From: Oryzias latipes | Taxonomy: Eukaryota > Chordata > Actinopteri > Beloniformes > Adrianichthyidae | Assembly: GCF_002234675.1 (NCBI RefSeq) | Contig: NC_019879.2 | Span: 25,291,855 to 25,355,854, forward strand | DNA: 64,000 bases | Direction: 5' to 3' | Shown here: piece after piece, positions 3,084 to 59,852 of the stretch | How the letters are laid out: every line of letters starts with the position of its first letter | Numbering within the stretch: the first letter of the stretch is position 1 | Translations under genes and position numbers: made by a program | The notes under the pieces: generated by a model | Told to the model about the DNA's origin: nothing | The model's database searches: none | What the model saw: only the letters and a program-made list of their open reading frames with translations

Positions 3084-9604
<6,521 letters not shown>

Positions 9605-10501: not shown

Positions 10502-11104
10502 GAGAATGTGGAAAAGACCAGAGAGATGGTTATGGACTTCAGGAAGAAACCACCACCTTCCCAGTCCCTCAGCATCTTTGGCAGAGATGTGGCAGAGGTT
10601 GAGGAGTACAAATACTTGGGAGTAACCATCGACAACAGACTGAGCTGAAGAGCAACAGCACTGCTGCATATAAGAAGGCCAGCAGCAGACTCCATTTCCT
10701 GAGGAGGCTAAGGTCCTTCAACGTGTGCAGCAAGATGCTTGAGATCTTTTACCAGTCTGTTGTGGCCAGCACTCTGTTCTTCTCGGTGACCTGCTGGGGG
10801 GGCAGCATATCTGCTAAGGACAGTAATAGACTGAACAAACTGATCCGAAGAGCTGGCTCCGTAATCGGTTGTAAAATGAATTTGAATCTGTGATGGAGAG
10901 GAGGACTTTAAATAAGCTTGTATCCATCATGGATAATCCTGAGCATCCTCTCCATCCTGTACTGGATGGTCAGTTTGATTGTTCTGGTTCTCTGTTGTCG
11001 TCTACTGTGTGTACGTTTGTATCTTGAGCCTAACGCCAACGCTGCAACAACCCAATTTCCCAAGCTGGGATCAATAAAGTATCTTTATCTTATCTTATCT
11101 TATC
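10502..11104 (+). mobile_element. 5'-truncated non-LTR retrotransposon (L2/Rex1-like), reverse transcriptase C-terminal remnant
   Basis: Plus-strand translation, with frame breaks, gives the end of a LINE ORF2: a VMDFRKK block, EEYKYLGVTIDNRLS, then RLHFLRRLRSFNVCSKML, FYQSVVASTLFFSVTCWGG and NRLNKLIRRAGSVIG. It ends in GGGATCAATAAAGTATC followed by (TTATC)n, a typical fish LINE tail. There is a stop and frame change just after RLS and stops after NLNL, so it is dead. The longer minus-strand frames here are shadows. Confidence 0.85.
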
Positions 11105-15543: not shown

Positions 15544-18500
15544 ATGATGAGGCCCAATCCTTGGATTTTGATCATGACTATCCTGCTTTCTGTGGCGTGG
15601 AGCCTGGAGCGAGGTGTGAATTTCTTACTTACTTTTTACCTTGACAATTTTAATAATGATTTCATATTTAATGGAGAAATATTTTGCCCTTTTTTTCTAT
15701 TTATTAATTGTAAAAGAGTTGTTTGTGAAACCAAAGTAATTTCTGTGAATAATGGAGTGATGGAGTCTAGATCCACACTGATTTCTTCTAAATTGTGACT
15801 CACTGTGGAAAGATGGTGGGCCTGCACCAAAGCAGACGAGGCAGAAACTCTCGTTTCACAACAGACGTGTGATAAGGTTGCCCTGTCTTTCTATACGAGG
15901 AGGAAGCACGCTGCCACTTGCTGTGATCTGATGATGCAGCTCTTCTCATCTGTCGGGGTCGCCAAGTTGTGGTTTTGCAGTCATGAACTTTATTTTGGTA
16001 ACACCTGACTGAAGTAAACAAGCAGCAGCTTTTGTGGAGGAGCTTTAGCAAACCGCAGCCATGGAGCTCTGAACTTTCCACAACCCGTTGCTTCCACACA
16101 GCTCTTCTAGAGTGCAGATGAAGGTTTAAGAATGGAACAGAAGCCTTGGTCTGTTCAATGAAACTGCGGTTTTCTTTCCTTTTGCTAGTCCTTTAAACAA
16201 AGCTAAAAGAAAAACAAAAAAACCTGTTTCCCTCCTGACCTTTTGTAATCCTGCTGCTCTTTTTATTCGTGGCCTTTTCTTAAAAAAACTGACTCCCTAA
16301 AATACTAAAACTGCATGACTACTAACGCACATCTGATGACTACTGTTCTCCATATTGCTCTGTTTGGAGTGAATCACTACTAACTTCAAAGAAATCTTTT
16401 ATTTTACTAACATGTTCCTTAACATTCACCCTCATCTCTCTCAGGAACTAATGAAAACCCCTCTGTGAACCCAACCAAAACCCCTCAGCCATCTAAGTAT
16501 TATGGTAATTTTTATTTTTCTATTTTTTTAAACAAAGAATTGTAAAGGGAAATGTCACAGCAGTCCACACTCAGTCTCTTTCTTAACATTTTCTTAAGCG
16601 CTTTGTTGAACTACGGTGAGTGACAATGTTGGGTATTTAAGTTTGAAAGATATTTTTATTCTGTAAAAACTAACATACGAAAGCCTTATAAACAAAGTTT
16701 GATTTGACAAAATGAAAGGAAAGCTGTTATTACTTGGAAATGATTATTAAAATTTAAAATTTTTCTTTTTGAAAAGAAATTCACACTCAAAAATAATTAA
16801 ATCAGAAATGTGAATTTTTCTTTGTATAAAATCTGTTATTTGTTTCCTTTGGGAGACAAACCAAAGCTTTTTTATTCTCTATTGGTCATAAACACTATTT
16901 TTGTGCTCAAGGTAAACCTTGTTTTCAGCTCAAATTGAAGTATAAAAGTAATAATGATCTCCTTTTTGTCATTCAATATCAAACTTTTTTTTATTCCATT
17001 AACTTTGCTTTGTCATGATTACACGATAATATTGGTATATGTCAATTATATGCTGTCAGTAAGTGAAAAAAAGGTGTGATTTGTGATTTGAAATGTAAAT
17101 TTAATGCGAGTTTTCCTGCTTTTTTTTGCAGCAAACAAAAGTAAAGTTTTCAATAACGGGAGCAATGTTAATCTAACGTGCAGTGATAAGACGTGGAATG
17201 AAGTACTTCATGTCATCTGGAATATATACTTTCGAGATCACTCCTGCAAGATAACCTTCAGCAGTTCAGGTGAAGCTGGTGAGAACTCCTGCAGAGATGG
17301 CATGTCTCTCCGGAACACTTCCAGCGCTCAGTCGTACCTGTACATCCCAAACTTTTCCACTGACGATGTGGGAATGTATGAGTGCGAATCCGTTTACAGG
17401 GGTGGAAGGGAAAATTACAACATCAATGTGTCAATCACAGGTAAGACCTTGTTCTGGTGATAGACTAAAAAGCTGCTTCAGGATCTGATTTGTAAAACAT
17501 AACATAGAAAAAGTGGGGGCCGTGAAACTTTTAGGGTCTTCATAAAAACTTCTAAATGTTCTGCTTAAAACCTTTATATATAAGAATTTTAGAAAGTATT
17601 TTGCATCTGTTATTTCTGTTTATATATAAAAAATCTGTTTCATATATTTTGTCTTTAATTGTGTAGTTGCTCCCAAAATATCGGCCTGGCTTGAGTACGA
17701 CGGCAGCAAAACGGTGGCGGTCTGCAGAGCCGAGCAGGGAAACCCCGCCGCCAACATCAGCTGGAGTCCTGCAGAAAACAAATCTGTGATGAGCATGAAC
17801 CCGTCCGATGGGTTTTTTAACGTTGAGAGTCGTCTTTCTGAAGAGGAATTTCCAGAAAACTTGACCTGTATTATCAGTCATCAGCTGTGGAATCAGGACA
17901 AGACTTTGGTACCAGACAGGAGCAAAATGAAGGCTGCAGCAAAAGGTTTTTGCATTTCATTAGCCATTGCTTCCATCTCCTGACTACCATAAGAAACTCT
18001 ACCATACGAAACCCTAAAACCTACAATTCCCAGTGCTCCACCCCTTCACATGATTAAAAATAATTCCCGTTGAGGTGTGCACAGAAGTCTTAACGGTCCG
18101 ATGCAAAGTCTGTTCATTTCAGATAATGCTTATCCTGCCTATAACATGGTCACTCATGAAAGAAACGTGTATTCAATCAATTCTTAATACTTTATTCTTG
18201 TTATTTTTTTAGGTTTAAATCGATTTTCCACAAAAAAGCGGACTATTTGGTAATATGGTGTGACACTATATCATGTTAATGGCCTCGACTGCAGCGGCAA
18301 AGGAAAGCGATATATATGTTAAAAAAAGCATTGGTTCAGAGAGAAAGTTGACCTCTTACCGCTTGTTTTCATCCAGATGATGAAGCCAAACCTCACTTCA
18401 AAGAAACAAAGTCTAAATAGTTCAATTCCTCCTCAGATCTTTTTTCTCTCTTTATGTTCTGTGGCATCCCGGTCTCAAAATAATCAAACTAACCAAACAG

Positions 18501-19202
18501 TAAACTAAAGTAAACTATAAATCACTTGTCTTTTCTACTGTCTCGCTGATGTGATAAACTGTGGAAAAAGGTATGACAAGCTATGTTTTTTTTTTATGTA
18601 TAACATTTGGGCTACGTGACCGGAACATCTTTCTTGGGTGTGCATTATCACTTTTTAATCAATCTGCCAATCAGAATCAAGTATTCACCAGGACCACGCT
18701 ATAATCAGGTCTAGAAATATTCTTTGCAGAGGACAAATTTGCATTACTGGTAGTCAGGATGTTATTTTGAAACCAATAGTTTGTTTATTTCTTTAATGAC
18801 ATCACGGACAAATCTCTCTCCAGCTCATTTGGCCTTGACATGTACGGGAGCTGTTGGGGTCGCACTTGTAATTTTGGGAGGATTAGTATATTTTGCACTA
18901 AAGAAACCAACTTTATTACCGTGAGTAGATCATTCAAATCAGTCATTGCATGTTTCTTTTCTCTTTTCCGTTCACTTACAAAGCATGTTTGTGTTGTTTC
19001 CCCCAGGTTCTGTCAACAGACAGACACCTCTACATCTAAACCACCTATGGTGAGTCACCGGATCTTCAGGTTTCCTTTTTTTTTCTGTTTGCGTCCTCAT
19101 TTGTGACAATCTGTTCCTTTGTCTATGTAGACATCAGAGGATGTGGAAGAAGTGGAGCCCTATGCTAGCTACGTTCAACGCGTGAACTCGATCTACAACT
19201 AA
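15544..19202 (+). CDS. cd200r1: CD200 receptor-like (cell surface glycoprotein CD200 receptor 1), 7 exons
   Basis: This is a type I membrane receptor expected to bind CD200 and damp myeloid activation. Exons: 15544-15613 (signal peptide, hydrophobic ILIMTILLSVAWS), 16445-16504 (short linker), 17132-17440 (V-type Ig; Cys in NLTCSD, DDVGMYECES), 17667-17945 (C2-type Ig; AVCRAEQGNP, ENLTCIISH), 18824-18920 (transmembrane, GVALVILGGLVYFAL), 19007-19049, 19131-19202. Phases fit throughout (309 residues; human about 325-350). The tail EPYASYVQRVNSIYN parallels the human CD200R1 tail QPYASYTEKNNPLYD, which recruits DOK adaptors by its NPxY; here the proline is serine. Extra cysteines in the first Ig domain (HSCKIT, NSCRDG) fit the CD200R family. 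The Ig exons have phase-1 borders. The Ig2 donor (G|GTTTTT) is weak. I chose the first of two adjacent ATGs. Confidence 0.87.
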
Positions 19203-23709: not shown

Positions 23710-24169
23710 AAAATTTATTTTCCCTCCAAAAGAAATATTATTTCCTTAAACCAAACAAACTCTTAAGCATTCAGCTATCAACATATTTTGTTATAAGCTT
23801 TTCTGAGGAGTATTCCAAACAAAACAGACCTTTTTAAAAAAAAAAAAAAAAAGAAATTTGGTACATTCGAGTTCACACATTTGTTTTTTAGGGTTTCTCT
23901 GCCTCCAGGTTGCACATTAGACGTCATAGTTTCTCAGGAATTACAATCATCCAACTGAAAAGGATTTGGTCCAAGGGTAGAGAGTCTCTTGAAAGGCCCT
24001 GTCTTGTTTTCATGCATCTTAGTGGCCACCTATTTCAGGTTTTCCAGAGTTACTTTGAACAAAGTTCAATCTTGACTCAACTGCAAACAAGCTCTCTTGT
24101 TGCATCAGACAATGTCAGGCCCTTTGGTCGGACAATCTCTTCGTCCAAATCCACTTTCCTCTCGTGCGT

Positions 24170-25428
24170 TTACTCCATGAGCACATAATCATCTGTGCAT
24201 TCCTCTTTGGAAGAGCAGTTGGACACCGTTTCCGGCACAAGGTTTTGTGGAGGGCCAACAGTTGCATAGTCACAGTTATCGTTTTCTATAAACCTTCTCT
24301 GTGCTTGCATGTTTTCATGGTTAATGGAGGCATATGTTACATCCTCATTAGGCTGTAAGGAAACAAGTGCAAGCTGTTAGAGCAAATAATTTTATCATCT
24401 ACAGTGTTTCTACTGTCAACATGTTTCTGGATGGATCCACGTCATTCCTCTAAACAATGAGAGACTCACTGTTTGACCAGTATGCAAATCTAGTCTTTCA
24501 TTCAAAAATTCAGATACACAAAAACCATACAAGAGAAGCTGCAGCCGACGCAAACTGAAAGTAAACAAAAAAAAGAGAGGGGGAAATCTACCTTGCCATC
24601 GATGCTTTTGTGAGATCGAGTAGAAGCCCCTGAAAGTAGAAAAAGTCAAAATGTCAAATGCTCCCATGCTTTTCAGTTTGTTTCTTCTTCTTTAATAGGA
24701 GTGTTCGTGCACTTTTACCTTTCCTCTTCTTTTTTGCTCTGTCACAAAAAAAGGAAACTGCAGTTAGAACGTGAATCCCCATGATGCTGATAGAAATATA
24801 ATCAAATTCAGAAAGAGTAATTTATTCAAAGAGAGATCTTTTTTCACTTTTTAATCTTTTGTTTAAGTTTGAAATAACAAAAAAAAACAAAGAGAATGCA
24901 TTTGAGCGATTATTGCATGAACTTGTCAGAGGTCTCTTTTACCCCATGTCTGCATTTCCTTGACAGATGAACAGATGAAGCAAACGTTGCAAGAGGAAGC
25001 AGTTTAACTACACGCAACTTTTGACTGTGAGCCGCGGCCTAATGAAGGTTTAACGTTTTCTTCATCGGGACCCTAGATAAAGATGGAATCAGCGATACAA
25101 GAAAATGCGCATTTGACTTGGCGCTGCCGCACATACACACACAAACTGAAACTATGTCTATTTTTATCAACCAACCGCTGTTTCCTTGTTAAGGAAAACG
25201 TTGAGCTGCTGCAAAACTAACGGGCAACAACATTTTATTAATTCAGGGTTTAAATTATGCTGTTTTGGGTTTGATGTTAATTTGAAAAGTTTTTGTTCCT
25301 CTAAATGCTTCACTTCAGCTTAAAAGTACATTTTGCAACTTTGAAATAAAAAAAAAAACAGTTATGGAAGATCAAGTGCACACCTGTTGGGTACAAAAAC
25401 CCTACCTGGAGGTCAAGCAGTTTCCCAT
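24170..25428 (-). CDS. small membrane-anchored tyrosine-motif adaptor, GCSAM-like, 4 exons, 87 aa
   Basis: Exons: 25428-25406, 24738-24719, 24629-24592, 24352-24170; all splice sites are GT-AG and the frame closes to 87 residues. The start is MGNCLTSRAKKKRKG: Gly2 for N-myristoylation, Cys4 for palmitoylation, then a polybasic run that should hold it on the inner plasma membrane. The last exon carries three tyrosine motifs: DVTYASINH, NCDYATV and DDYVLME. There is no Ig domain, signal peptide or transmembrane segment. Human GCSAM (germinal centre adaptor; MGNSLL start, a CYTLINH motif, a late DEYELL) has the same plan: tiny first exon, short middle exons, tyrosines in the last exon. Its gene neighbours CD200 and BTLA, as here. 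VTYASINH also resembles the BTLA tail. The ATG has A at -3 and G at +4. Gene reality is well supported; the orthology is inference. Confidence 0.68.
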
Positions 25429-35077: not shown

Positions 35078-36782
35078 ACATGCCCCAAGACATCGAAGAG
35101 AACAGCTTTAACAATGAAGGTACAGCTTTTTTCCGTCATTCAGATGTGTTTGATTCAGCTCGGGATTGCAGATCTGGTTTTTTTTTTTTTTTTTTACACC
35201 AGACTGACTCCTGGTCCTGGCTGGCTTACTTTTCCATGTGTGTCAGCATCGTTGTTCTGCTGATCTCTCTGACACTGATAACAGTCCTGTGCTACCGGTC
35301 GTGGGGCGGTAAGATCCTTCACCTGTACAGCAGTATATTTTGAGTTTTTAACTGATCAAAGAAATATTGAATGTTTTTTTTTTTGTTTTTTACAGGACTA
35401 CAGACCTGCATACATGCAAAAAGAAAGGTGAGATGAAAACACTCAGATTTTGGATAATTTTCTAGTTTTAAGAAATAGGAAGAAGATAACCAGTTTTATT
35501 TTCATACGATGCTGGCCAACAAAACAAAGTTCCAGTCTGATCATCTTTGGATCTATTTTAAAAGTCTTCCCATTAGCTTTTTTAATGATGATAATACCAA
35601 TTTTTAGCCAAAAAAAAAGTGTGAGTTTTGCAGTGTAAGCCCTTCCCTTCCCATTCCCCATCTGTTCACATTCTCTCCCGCTAGCTTACAGCCCCAAACA
35701 AACCCAAACAGTAGCGGTGCAACAAAAATGGCGAGCAACAGTGGAGTGATCCAGACATACAGTTTTGATTCAGATTCCATTTAGAAATAAAAAAAAATAA
35801 TTTAAAATAATAAAATTAAAATAAAGACGTTCATGGATCTATTTGTCTGCAAGTGGATGCATCAGAATGGAGCAAAGCAGGGAGCTCTGCTCTCCATGAC
35901 GTATTTTCTACGTTACAATTCAGAACAATTTGAATGCAATTTTAAGCTTCATTTCTGTAATATTTGTCCTCAAGCATCAGTCAAAAAATTCTGTTTAAAA
36001 TGGCTTGTAGCTATTATTTAGGTGCTACAATCAGACAAATAGATCTATTAATGTCTTTGTTTTCCTTGTCTGAGCTGGTATCTGGATCAAAACTGTTTGG
36101 CTGGATTGCTCAACATTTTTGTTGCACCAGTAATGAATGGTATGTTGAGGTTGGAAGGGGCTGTAAGCTAGCAGGAGAGTGTAAACAGATGGATGATGGG
36201 GAAGGATTACTCCTGAGTAACTGTTCCAAACAACTCAGAGGTGAATTTTTAATAATCTCTTGCCTCTCTGCAGACACTATGTCCTAGAAAACGACACAGG
36301 TTTTTTTTATTTTTTATTTTGGCTTAAACTTGCATAATCATAATTAAAAGACCACCAAGAATGCTTTAAAAATAGATCAGAAATGATCAGAGTCTGACTT
36401 TAAAAACACCAAAAACACAATTTTCATAGGAATGGGTTTTGAACTAACACAATTAAGTTGTGTACTTATTTTGCAGCAGGGGATGTCAAATCAAATGATA
36501 CCAATCCTCCCAAAGATGAGCTCTCCTCCAGGCCTCCATTCCAGCTTCTCACTTCTGTATGACGCTCACTGTTCAAACTCTGCAAGAGCAACCACTGTGT
36601 CTTTCAGCCCCACGGAGAATCAGCCCGCTGCTGCAAACAGTGACGGTAAAACCAGAGTGTCAGACACAGTGATCTACTCTGTCATCACCATCAGAGGAAG
36701 TGGAAAACCTGTTGCCGCCTCACAAGTCGAGAGAACAGAATACGCAGCAATCAAAGTGACAAACTTCCAGGAAAGCTCGTGA
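35078..36782 (+). CDS. BTLA-like inhibitory receptor, stalk, transmembrane and ITIM/ITSM tail; Ig part not found
   Basis: Exons: 35078-35119 (14-residue stalk, TCPKTSKRTALTMK), 35203-35308 (transmembrane, YFSMCVSIVVLLISLTLITVLCY), 35396-35427 (GLQTCIHAKRK), 36477-36782. Frames join 0, 0, 1, 0. The last exon holds an ITIM (TVIYSVI) and an ITSM-like motif (RTEYAAIKV) about 24 residues apart, close to the C-terminus. This is the BTLA/PD-1 arrangement (human BTLA IVYASL and TEYASI), and such motifs recruit SHP-1/SHP-2. CD200 and CD200R genes nearby match the human BTLA neighbourhood. I found no Ig exon or convincing signal peptide in 28-35 kb upstream, so the listed start is an internal exon. It could be a gene with a very distant or diverged ectodomain, or a remnant. 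The intron between exons 3 and 4 is mostly MITE family A. Confidence 0.58.
35520..36405. repeat. MITE-like family A, copies 4-5 (two joined) in a BTLA-like intron
   Basis: The left part has AAAGTTCCAGTCTGATCATC, TCTGTTCACATTCTCTCCCGCTAGCTTACAGCCCC and GTGGATGCATCAGAATGGAGCAAA. The right part runs in the other direction (GCTGGTATCTGGATCAAAACTGTTTGGCTGGAT, GGGGCTGTAAGCTAGCAGGAGAGTGTAAACAGATGG) and ends ATGATCAGAGTCTGACTTTAA. It fills most of the 1.05-kb intron. Confidence 0.8.

Positions 36783-42044: not shown

Positions 42045-59852
<17,808 letters not shown>

Follow-up and report, generated by a model that had tools for sequence, protein, structure and literature searches.

A short candidate tyrosine adaptor encoded near CD200 in Oryzias latipes and its possible kinship with GCSAM and GCSAML

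Does a small, finely divided locus in the fish Oryzias latipes encode a relative of the signalling adaptors GCSAM and GCSAML, and would such an adaptor be older than the germinal centre? According to PMC10450919, bony fishes have neither a discernible white pulp nor organised zones of lymphocytes, and the main text of that paper does not mention GCSAM, HGAL or GCET. Literature searches for GCSAM together with teleost, zebrafish or fish returned no paper on a fish GCSAM; database annotations may already name the gene. The locus was studied within a window of 64,000 nt, the whole stretch of DNA analyzed (C21:25291855-25355854, NC_019879.2), and positions below are given within this window. A first-pass annotation of the sequence had proposed that the locus encodes a GCSAM-like membrane adaptor.

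On the minus strand, four exons with GT/AG at all borders join into a 264-nt frame, including the stop codon, that encodes 87 residues. The coding part of exon 1 (25406..25428, 23 nt) specifies MGNCLTS and the AG of Arg8 and ends in phase 2; its start codon has A at -3 and G at +4. Exon 2 (24719..24738) is a micro-exon of 20 nt that carries the polybasic patch AKKKRK, and it is followed by the 38-nt exon 3 (GASTRSHKSIDGK; 24592..24629). Exon 4, the tyrosine exon, begins in phase 0 and spans 183 nt (24170..24352), with the stop codon at 24172-24170. An AATAAA polyadenylation-type signal lies approximately 450 nt past the stop on the same strand (23714..23719). The first-pass annotation had described GT-AG exons of 23, 20, 38 and 183 bases in one frame, with an MGNC start, the AKKKRK patch and the motifs VTYASI, CDYATV and DDYVLM; the exon structure was borne out, and every one of these sequence features is present in the spliced frame.

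Splice sites were scored with textbook consensus matrices. The interval 24.0-26.2 kb contains 114 GT sites, among which the donors of the model rank 1, 5 and 7, and 140 AG sites, among which its acceptors rank 1, 3 and 5; the exon 1 donor and the exon 3 acceptor head their respective lists. A search for start/donor/acceptor paths leading into the tyrosine exon at phase 0, which was blind to the protein, returned exactly the four-exon model as its top path (score 41.9). When 821 other window segments of the same length were searched, 8 scored at least as high as the model; these 8 overlap and correspond to four places, and one of the four, on the plus strand at 16.4-17.8 kb, spans a genuine Ig exon. 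Myristoylation-type starts are found in 10 of the 1545 ATG contexts in the window that have their first eight codons open. The observation is confirmed and is better than chance, and the locus is likely to be a real gene.

The protein is short and probably disordered, and a Pfam scan of its 87 residues returned no family at E values up to 10. The N terminus, MGNCLTSRAKKKRK, places an MGN myristoylation-type start beside a basic cluster, and the charge is divided along the chain: residues 1-27 contain nine K/R and one D/E, and the remainder contains 3 basic and 12 acidic residues. Cysteines occur at positions 4, 54, 73 and 79 only, the tyrosines are Y34 (VTYASI), Y56 (CDYATV) and Y83 (DDYVLM), and the C terminus is DDYVLME. 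Y34 is ITIM-like and is followed by INH, which includes H39. A GRB2-binding YxN is absent, with xN following none of Y34, Y56 and Y83, and neither a CxC palmitoylation pair nor a C-terminal PDZ-binding motif is present in the 87-residue protein. The membrane adaptor that had been proposed fits this sequence, and the locus product is likely an acylated tyrosine adaptor.

Gly2, Cys4 and the charge split together suggest that the protein is anchored to the membrane by two acyl groups and by electrostatic attraction, leaving an acidic tail free. Gly2 would be myristoylated and Cys4 palmitoylated, and the acyl groups, together with the basic patch (residues 10-14), would anchor the protein at the inner face of the plasma membrane. 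VTYASI has the form of an ITIM, and YxxM is the form bound by PI3K p85. The acidic tail may be phosphorylated at Y34, Y56 and Y83 by Syk/Src-family kinases, after which phospho-Y34 (VTYASI, ITIM-type) could dock SH2 phosphatases and phospho-Y83 (YVLM, YxxM-type) could dock PI3K p85. The protein would thus be a small cytosolic scaffold that tunes Syk-coupled immunoreceptor signalling, and it would have a short GCSAML-like architecture without the GRB2 and PDZ-RhoGEF arms of human GCSAM. For the fish gene we infer transcription, acylation, phosphorylation and partners, as well as orthology. At 24505-24645 (minus strand), the frame of exon 3 also continues into intron 3 and gives a hydrophobic stretch, and a retained intron 3, if used, would encode a possible membrane segment. 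A membrane isoform produced by this read-through was considered but not adopted, since the intron is rich in T and the stretch probably arose by chance.

Membership of the HGAL family (PF15666) is defined by a match to the curated profile of more than 27 bits. Control sequences matched this profile (human GCSAM, 6.5e-43; human GCSAML, 6.8e-28; mouse Gcsam, 1.5e-38). Against the whole genome (734,051,031 bases in 25 contigs) the profile identified one unrelated place, at an E value of 5.76, and missed the adaptor locus (one first-look candidate was scored). Because the HGAL profile finds neither the protein nor the locus, the fish protein is, by the defining test, not a member of the family. 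When human GCSAML itself was searched against the whole genome, only two weak places were returned, on C24 and C16, with E values of 2.57 and 9.53.

A profile comparison had been proposed in the first-pass annotation, and its outcome was divided. The curated HGAL profile gave no match, but a profile made from the two human proteins, GCSAM and GCSAML, placed the spliced fish protein at rank 1 among itself and 1659 ORFs of the window, with an E value of 0.011 that is short of HMMER's inclusion threshold; the frame of the tyrosine exon alone was fourth in this ranking. Shuffled controls matched the real score of the two-sequence profile in 0, 1 and 1 of 3000 cases, and with a three-sequence profile, to which the mouse protein was added, 4, 6 and 3 of 3000 shuffles did as well.

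In Smith-Waterman alignments, the fish protein scored 62 against human GCSAML, a value attained in 1 of 2000 shuffles, and 40 against human GCSAM, attained in 87 of 2000. For the tyrosine exon alone, the corresponding numbers of equally good shuffles were 93 and 548 of 2000. A single-pair BLASTP in the GCSAM/GCSAML comparison gave an E value of 2e-04. The similarity between the fish protein and GCSAML is suggestive, and part of it comes from the basic and serine-rich residues that exons 2 and 3 contribute.

GCSAM (HGAL, GCET2; mouse M17) has in common with the fish protein an MGN start, which in mouse GCSAM we take to be MGNC, a polybasic cluster and a tyrosine tail that lacks a transmembrane (TM) segment. 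Both also contain Y-x-x-I-N-H with the FBXO10 histidine, the shared INH block running from Y34 as ASINH39 in the fish protein and from Y86 as TLINH91 in human GCSAM. The fish protein differs from GCSAM in that it has no CxC pair, no GRB2 YENV site and no C-terminal PDZ motif and is half the length. Human GCSAML (C1ORF150) shares with the fish protein the MGN start, the basic region and the absence of both a PDZ tail and a CxC pair, and the block EEVCYTVINH in the human protein is the counterpart of EDVTYASINH in the fish protein. The fish protein is shorter, with 87 residues compared with approximately 135, and has three tyrosines rather than four; human GCSAML carries a YEN GRB2-type site that the fish protein lacks, whereas Cys4 is present in the fish protein and missing from human GCSAML. 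In PMC11518702, H91 of human GCSAM is given as the FBXO10 site, and GCSAML is described as having neither the CxC pair nor the PDZ motif.

The position of the first intron provides a further point of comparison with GCSAML. Human GCSAML exon 1 contributes 29 coding bases and exon 2 contributes 60 bases, and skipping of exon 2 replaces Ser with Arg at the border, according to PMC10333346; this Ser-to-Arg change implies that intron 1 of human GCSAML is in phase 2. Fish exon 1, with its 23 coding bases, is also in phase 2 and divides an Arg codon as AG/A. A short first coding exon followed by a phase-2 intron 1 is therefore common to the fish gene and human GCSAML.

Within the window, the adaptor is positioned between CD200R-like Ig exons on its low side and CD200 on its high side. 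On the plus strand, the Ig receptor at 17092..18920, which we take to be CD200R-like, comprises an Ig V-set exon (17092..17460; Pfam V-set), a C2-type exon (17630-17983; Pfam C2-set) and a TM exon (18824-18920); CD200R is absent among the 60 PDB matches listed for this receptor. CD200 (OX-2) is on the minus strand and includes a V-domain exon at 56187..56582 (Pfam V-set; best PDB match OX-2 4bfi_B, E 4.8e-11), a C2-type exon near 45.6-45.9 kb and a TM exon at 43924..44025, which with its best donor (8.1) runs from phase 1 to phase 1. The TM and V exons are approximately 18 kb and 31 kb, respectively, from exon 1 of the adaptor. A second CD200-like V-set exon was observed at 59357-59710 (minus strand) and is approximately 30% identical to the V exon at 56.2 kb over 127 aligned residues.

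Exons of CFAP91 were matched in two pieces, at 5451-5840 and 6603-6860 on the minus strand (PF14738, E 5.6e-07 and 1.4e-13), and the former also has a PDB match to CFAP91 (E 0.0076). On the CFAP91 side, a GSK3B exon lies approximately 44 kb from the adaptor (E 7.3e-36), and a cholecystokinin receptor is located farther out on the CD200 side. These neighbours were taken from among the reading frames listed, and the flanks may hold more genes. In the human genome, GCSAM lies, we assume, close to CD200 at 3q13.2, with CFAP91 and GSK3B presumably at 3q13.33. No DUF4174 (CCDC80-type) gene was found near the window, with matches on C12, C10 and C21 of which the nearest is 13.5 Mb away, and no ATG3/ATG10-type gene was found near it, with matches on C2 and C17. 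The distance of the DUF4174 and ATG3/ATG10 genes counts against tight 3q13.2 synteny. The phrase 3q13.2/CD200/BTLA occurs in PMC10353714, and a literature search for 3q13 together with GCSAM found no paper. The window also contains a tandem array at 47960-48525 (87-base unit, 6.6 copies, 97% matches), with long open stretches on both strands, and an ORF at 10603-10890 (plus strand) with an ALKBH8_N-type match (E 2.3e-10). Matches of the ALKBH8_N type are often seen in fish transposon remnants.

The adaptor has a single match in the genome: at E values up to 10, the 87-residue protein matched only its own tyrosine exon (two first-look candidates were scored). A second CD200 cluster, at C2:23144575-23182204 (L016-L019), contains at least five CD200-like V domains, the best of which is 56% identical to CD200 in the window, and this cluster is perhaps a duplicate from the teleost genome doubling. 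No adaptor copy was detected beside it in the 50 kb at C2:23180001-23230000, where the best tblastn E value was 0.32. This interval includes a long open frame (L021, C2:23196523-23198655) that by eye resembles a Ty3/gypsy-type retrotransposon polymerase. Relatives of the adaptor were also sought in viral contigs, in which eight stretches had the peptide pattern and none was confirmed.

How else might the locus be explained? It might not be a gene at all, with an open exon and splice sites that arose by chance or with a pseudogene in decay, and the four other places (8 of 821 segments) that score equally high in the window would agree with this. The frame is, however, unbroken over four exons, the splice sites rank highly, the start has A at -3 and G at +4, the myristoylation start is rare (10 of 1545) and AATAAA is present, and we consider this explanation very improbable. 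Slightly less remote, yet still unlikely, is the proposal that exons 1-3 are fortuitous and that the tyrosine exon encodes the cytoplasmic tail of a BTLA- or CD200-like Ig/TM receptor. VTYASINH is like the ITIM of human BTLA, which is presumably of the VYASLNH type, and like the fish protein, BTLA and other ITIM/ITSM Ig receptor tails have a second downstream tyrosine. In the comparison with a human BTLA tail, 24 of 2000 shuffles were as good for the whole protein, a better result than that against GCSAM (87 of 2000), and 55 of 2000 were as good for the tyrosine exon, compared with 93 of 2000 against GCSAML; the exon alone is therefore no closer to GCSAML than to that tail. Ig genes lie around the locus, and one weak donor at 43907 (3.7), belonging to the CD200 TM exon, would end in phase 0 and fit exon 4. 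With its best donor, in contrast, the CD200 TM exon ends in phase 1, and joining it to exon 4 gives an immediate stop. Splicing of the tyrosine exon to a minus-strand Ig/TM exon, which the first-pass annotation had named as the case against its own model, would thus be out of frame with the best donor and in frame with the weak donor at 43907. A scan of the minus strand from 24.2 to 64 kb for TM exons (acceptor at least 7, donor at least 5 and a hydrophobic segment) gave five candidates at three places, and the sole phase-0 candidate is unlike a receptor. No Ig/TM exon joins the fish gene in frame via a good donor, and its exon 1 supplies an acylation start, whereas Ig receptors have a signal peptide. 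The other gene with a TM segment and an ITIM-type tail (35-37 kb) runs in the opposite direction, on the plus strand. Intron phase and the absence of TM exons with good, fitting splice sites therefore disfavour a receptor tail. The plus-strand gene (35203-36779) has its TM exon at 35203-35308, and the tail that comes after it contains YSVI and TEYAAI (ITIM/ITSM type); a simple pattern and visual inspection revealed no Ig exon upstream of this TM exon in 26-35 kb, and the tail has no clear similarity to the human BTLA tail (321 of 2000 shuffles as good).

An acylated tyrosine adaptor could also have arisen independently of GCSAM, with the same plan and no shared ancestry. Motifs as simple as an MGN start and a short YxxI/L tail evolve again and again, the HGAL profile is unmatched, the similarity comes down to a handful of residues near INH plus basic and serine-rich residues encoded by exons 2 and 3, and the BTLA tail is about equally similar. 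Independent origin would, however, leave the GCSAML-like short first exon in phase 2 and the CD200 neighbourhood as two coincidences, and we regard it as doubtful, although it deserves more weight than either a receptor tail or a spurious gene. Kinship with the GCSAM family is favoured by the GCSAML similarity, the phase-2 first intron and the CD200 neighbourhood, which are independent and of weak-to-moderate strength. It is not established, because the HGAL profile is unmatched, the tyrosine exon on its own resembles GCSAML no more than it does a BTLA tail, and several GCSAM motifs are missing. The proposal of a fish GCSAM relative consequently stands in part: GCSAML similarity, the phase-2 intron and nearby CD200 speak for it, and the HGAL profile and the lack of GRB2, CxC and PDZ motifs speak against it. 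The balance tips modestly toward a single-copy, four-exon gene for an 87-residue acylated adaptor that is a divergent fish relative of GCSAM/GCSAML with a short architecture. Divergent kinship is thus the more probable reading of the protein, orthology of the gene with GCSAM/GCSAML is unproven, and descent rather than convergence is what we infer.

Whether fish hold a single ancestral GCSAM/GCSAML gene near CD200, in a short form with a lipid anchor, an ITIM and a YxxM but without the GRB2 and PDZ-RhoGEF arms, seems to us an evenly balanced question. The location close to CD200 points to an origin of such adaptors before germinal centres, although the sequence match is weak. Such an adaptor in fish would agree with GCSAM acting outside germinal centres, since PMC12132402 lists GCSAM among the highly phosphorylated proteins of natural intraepithelial T cells. 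Fish lymphoid tissue contains Aicda-positive cell clusters ringed by melanomacrophages, as reported in PMC9772432, and the adaptor is a candidate gene to seek in these clusters. If the ancestral-gene reading is true, the adaptor would predate germinal centres and would first have served innate-like or general immunoreceptor signalling, and land vertebrates would have acquired its B-cell germinal-centre features at a later stage. The signalling part and the germinal-centre structure could then be assigned separate ages.
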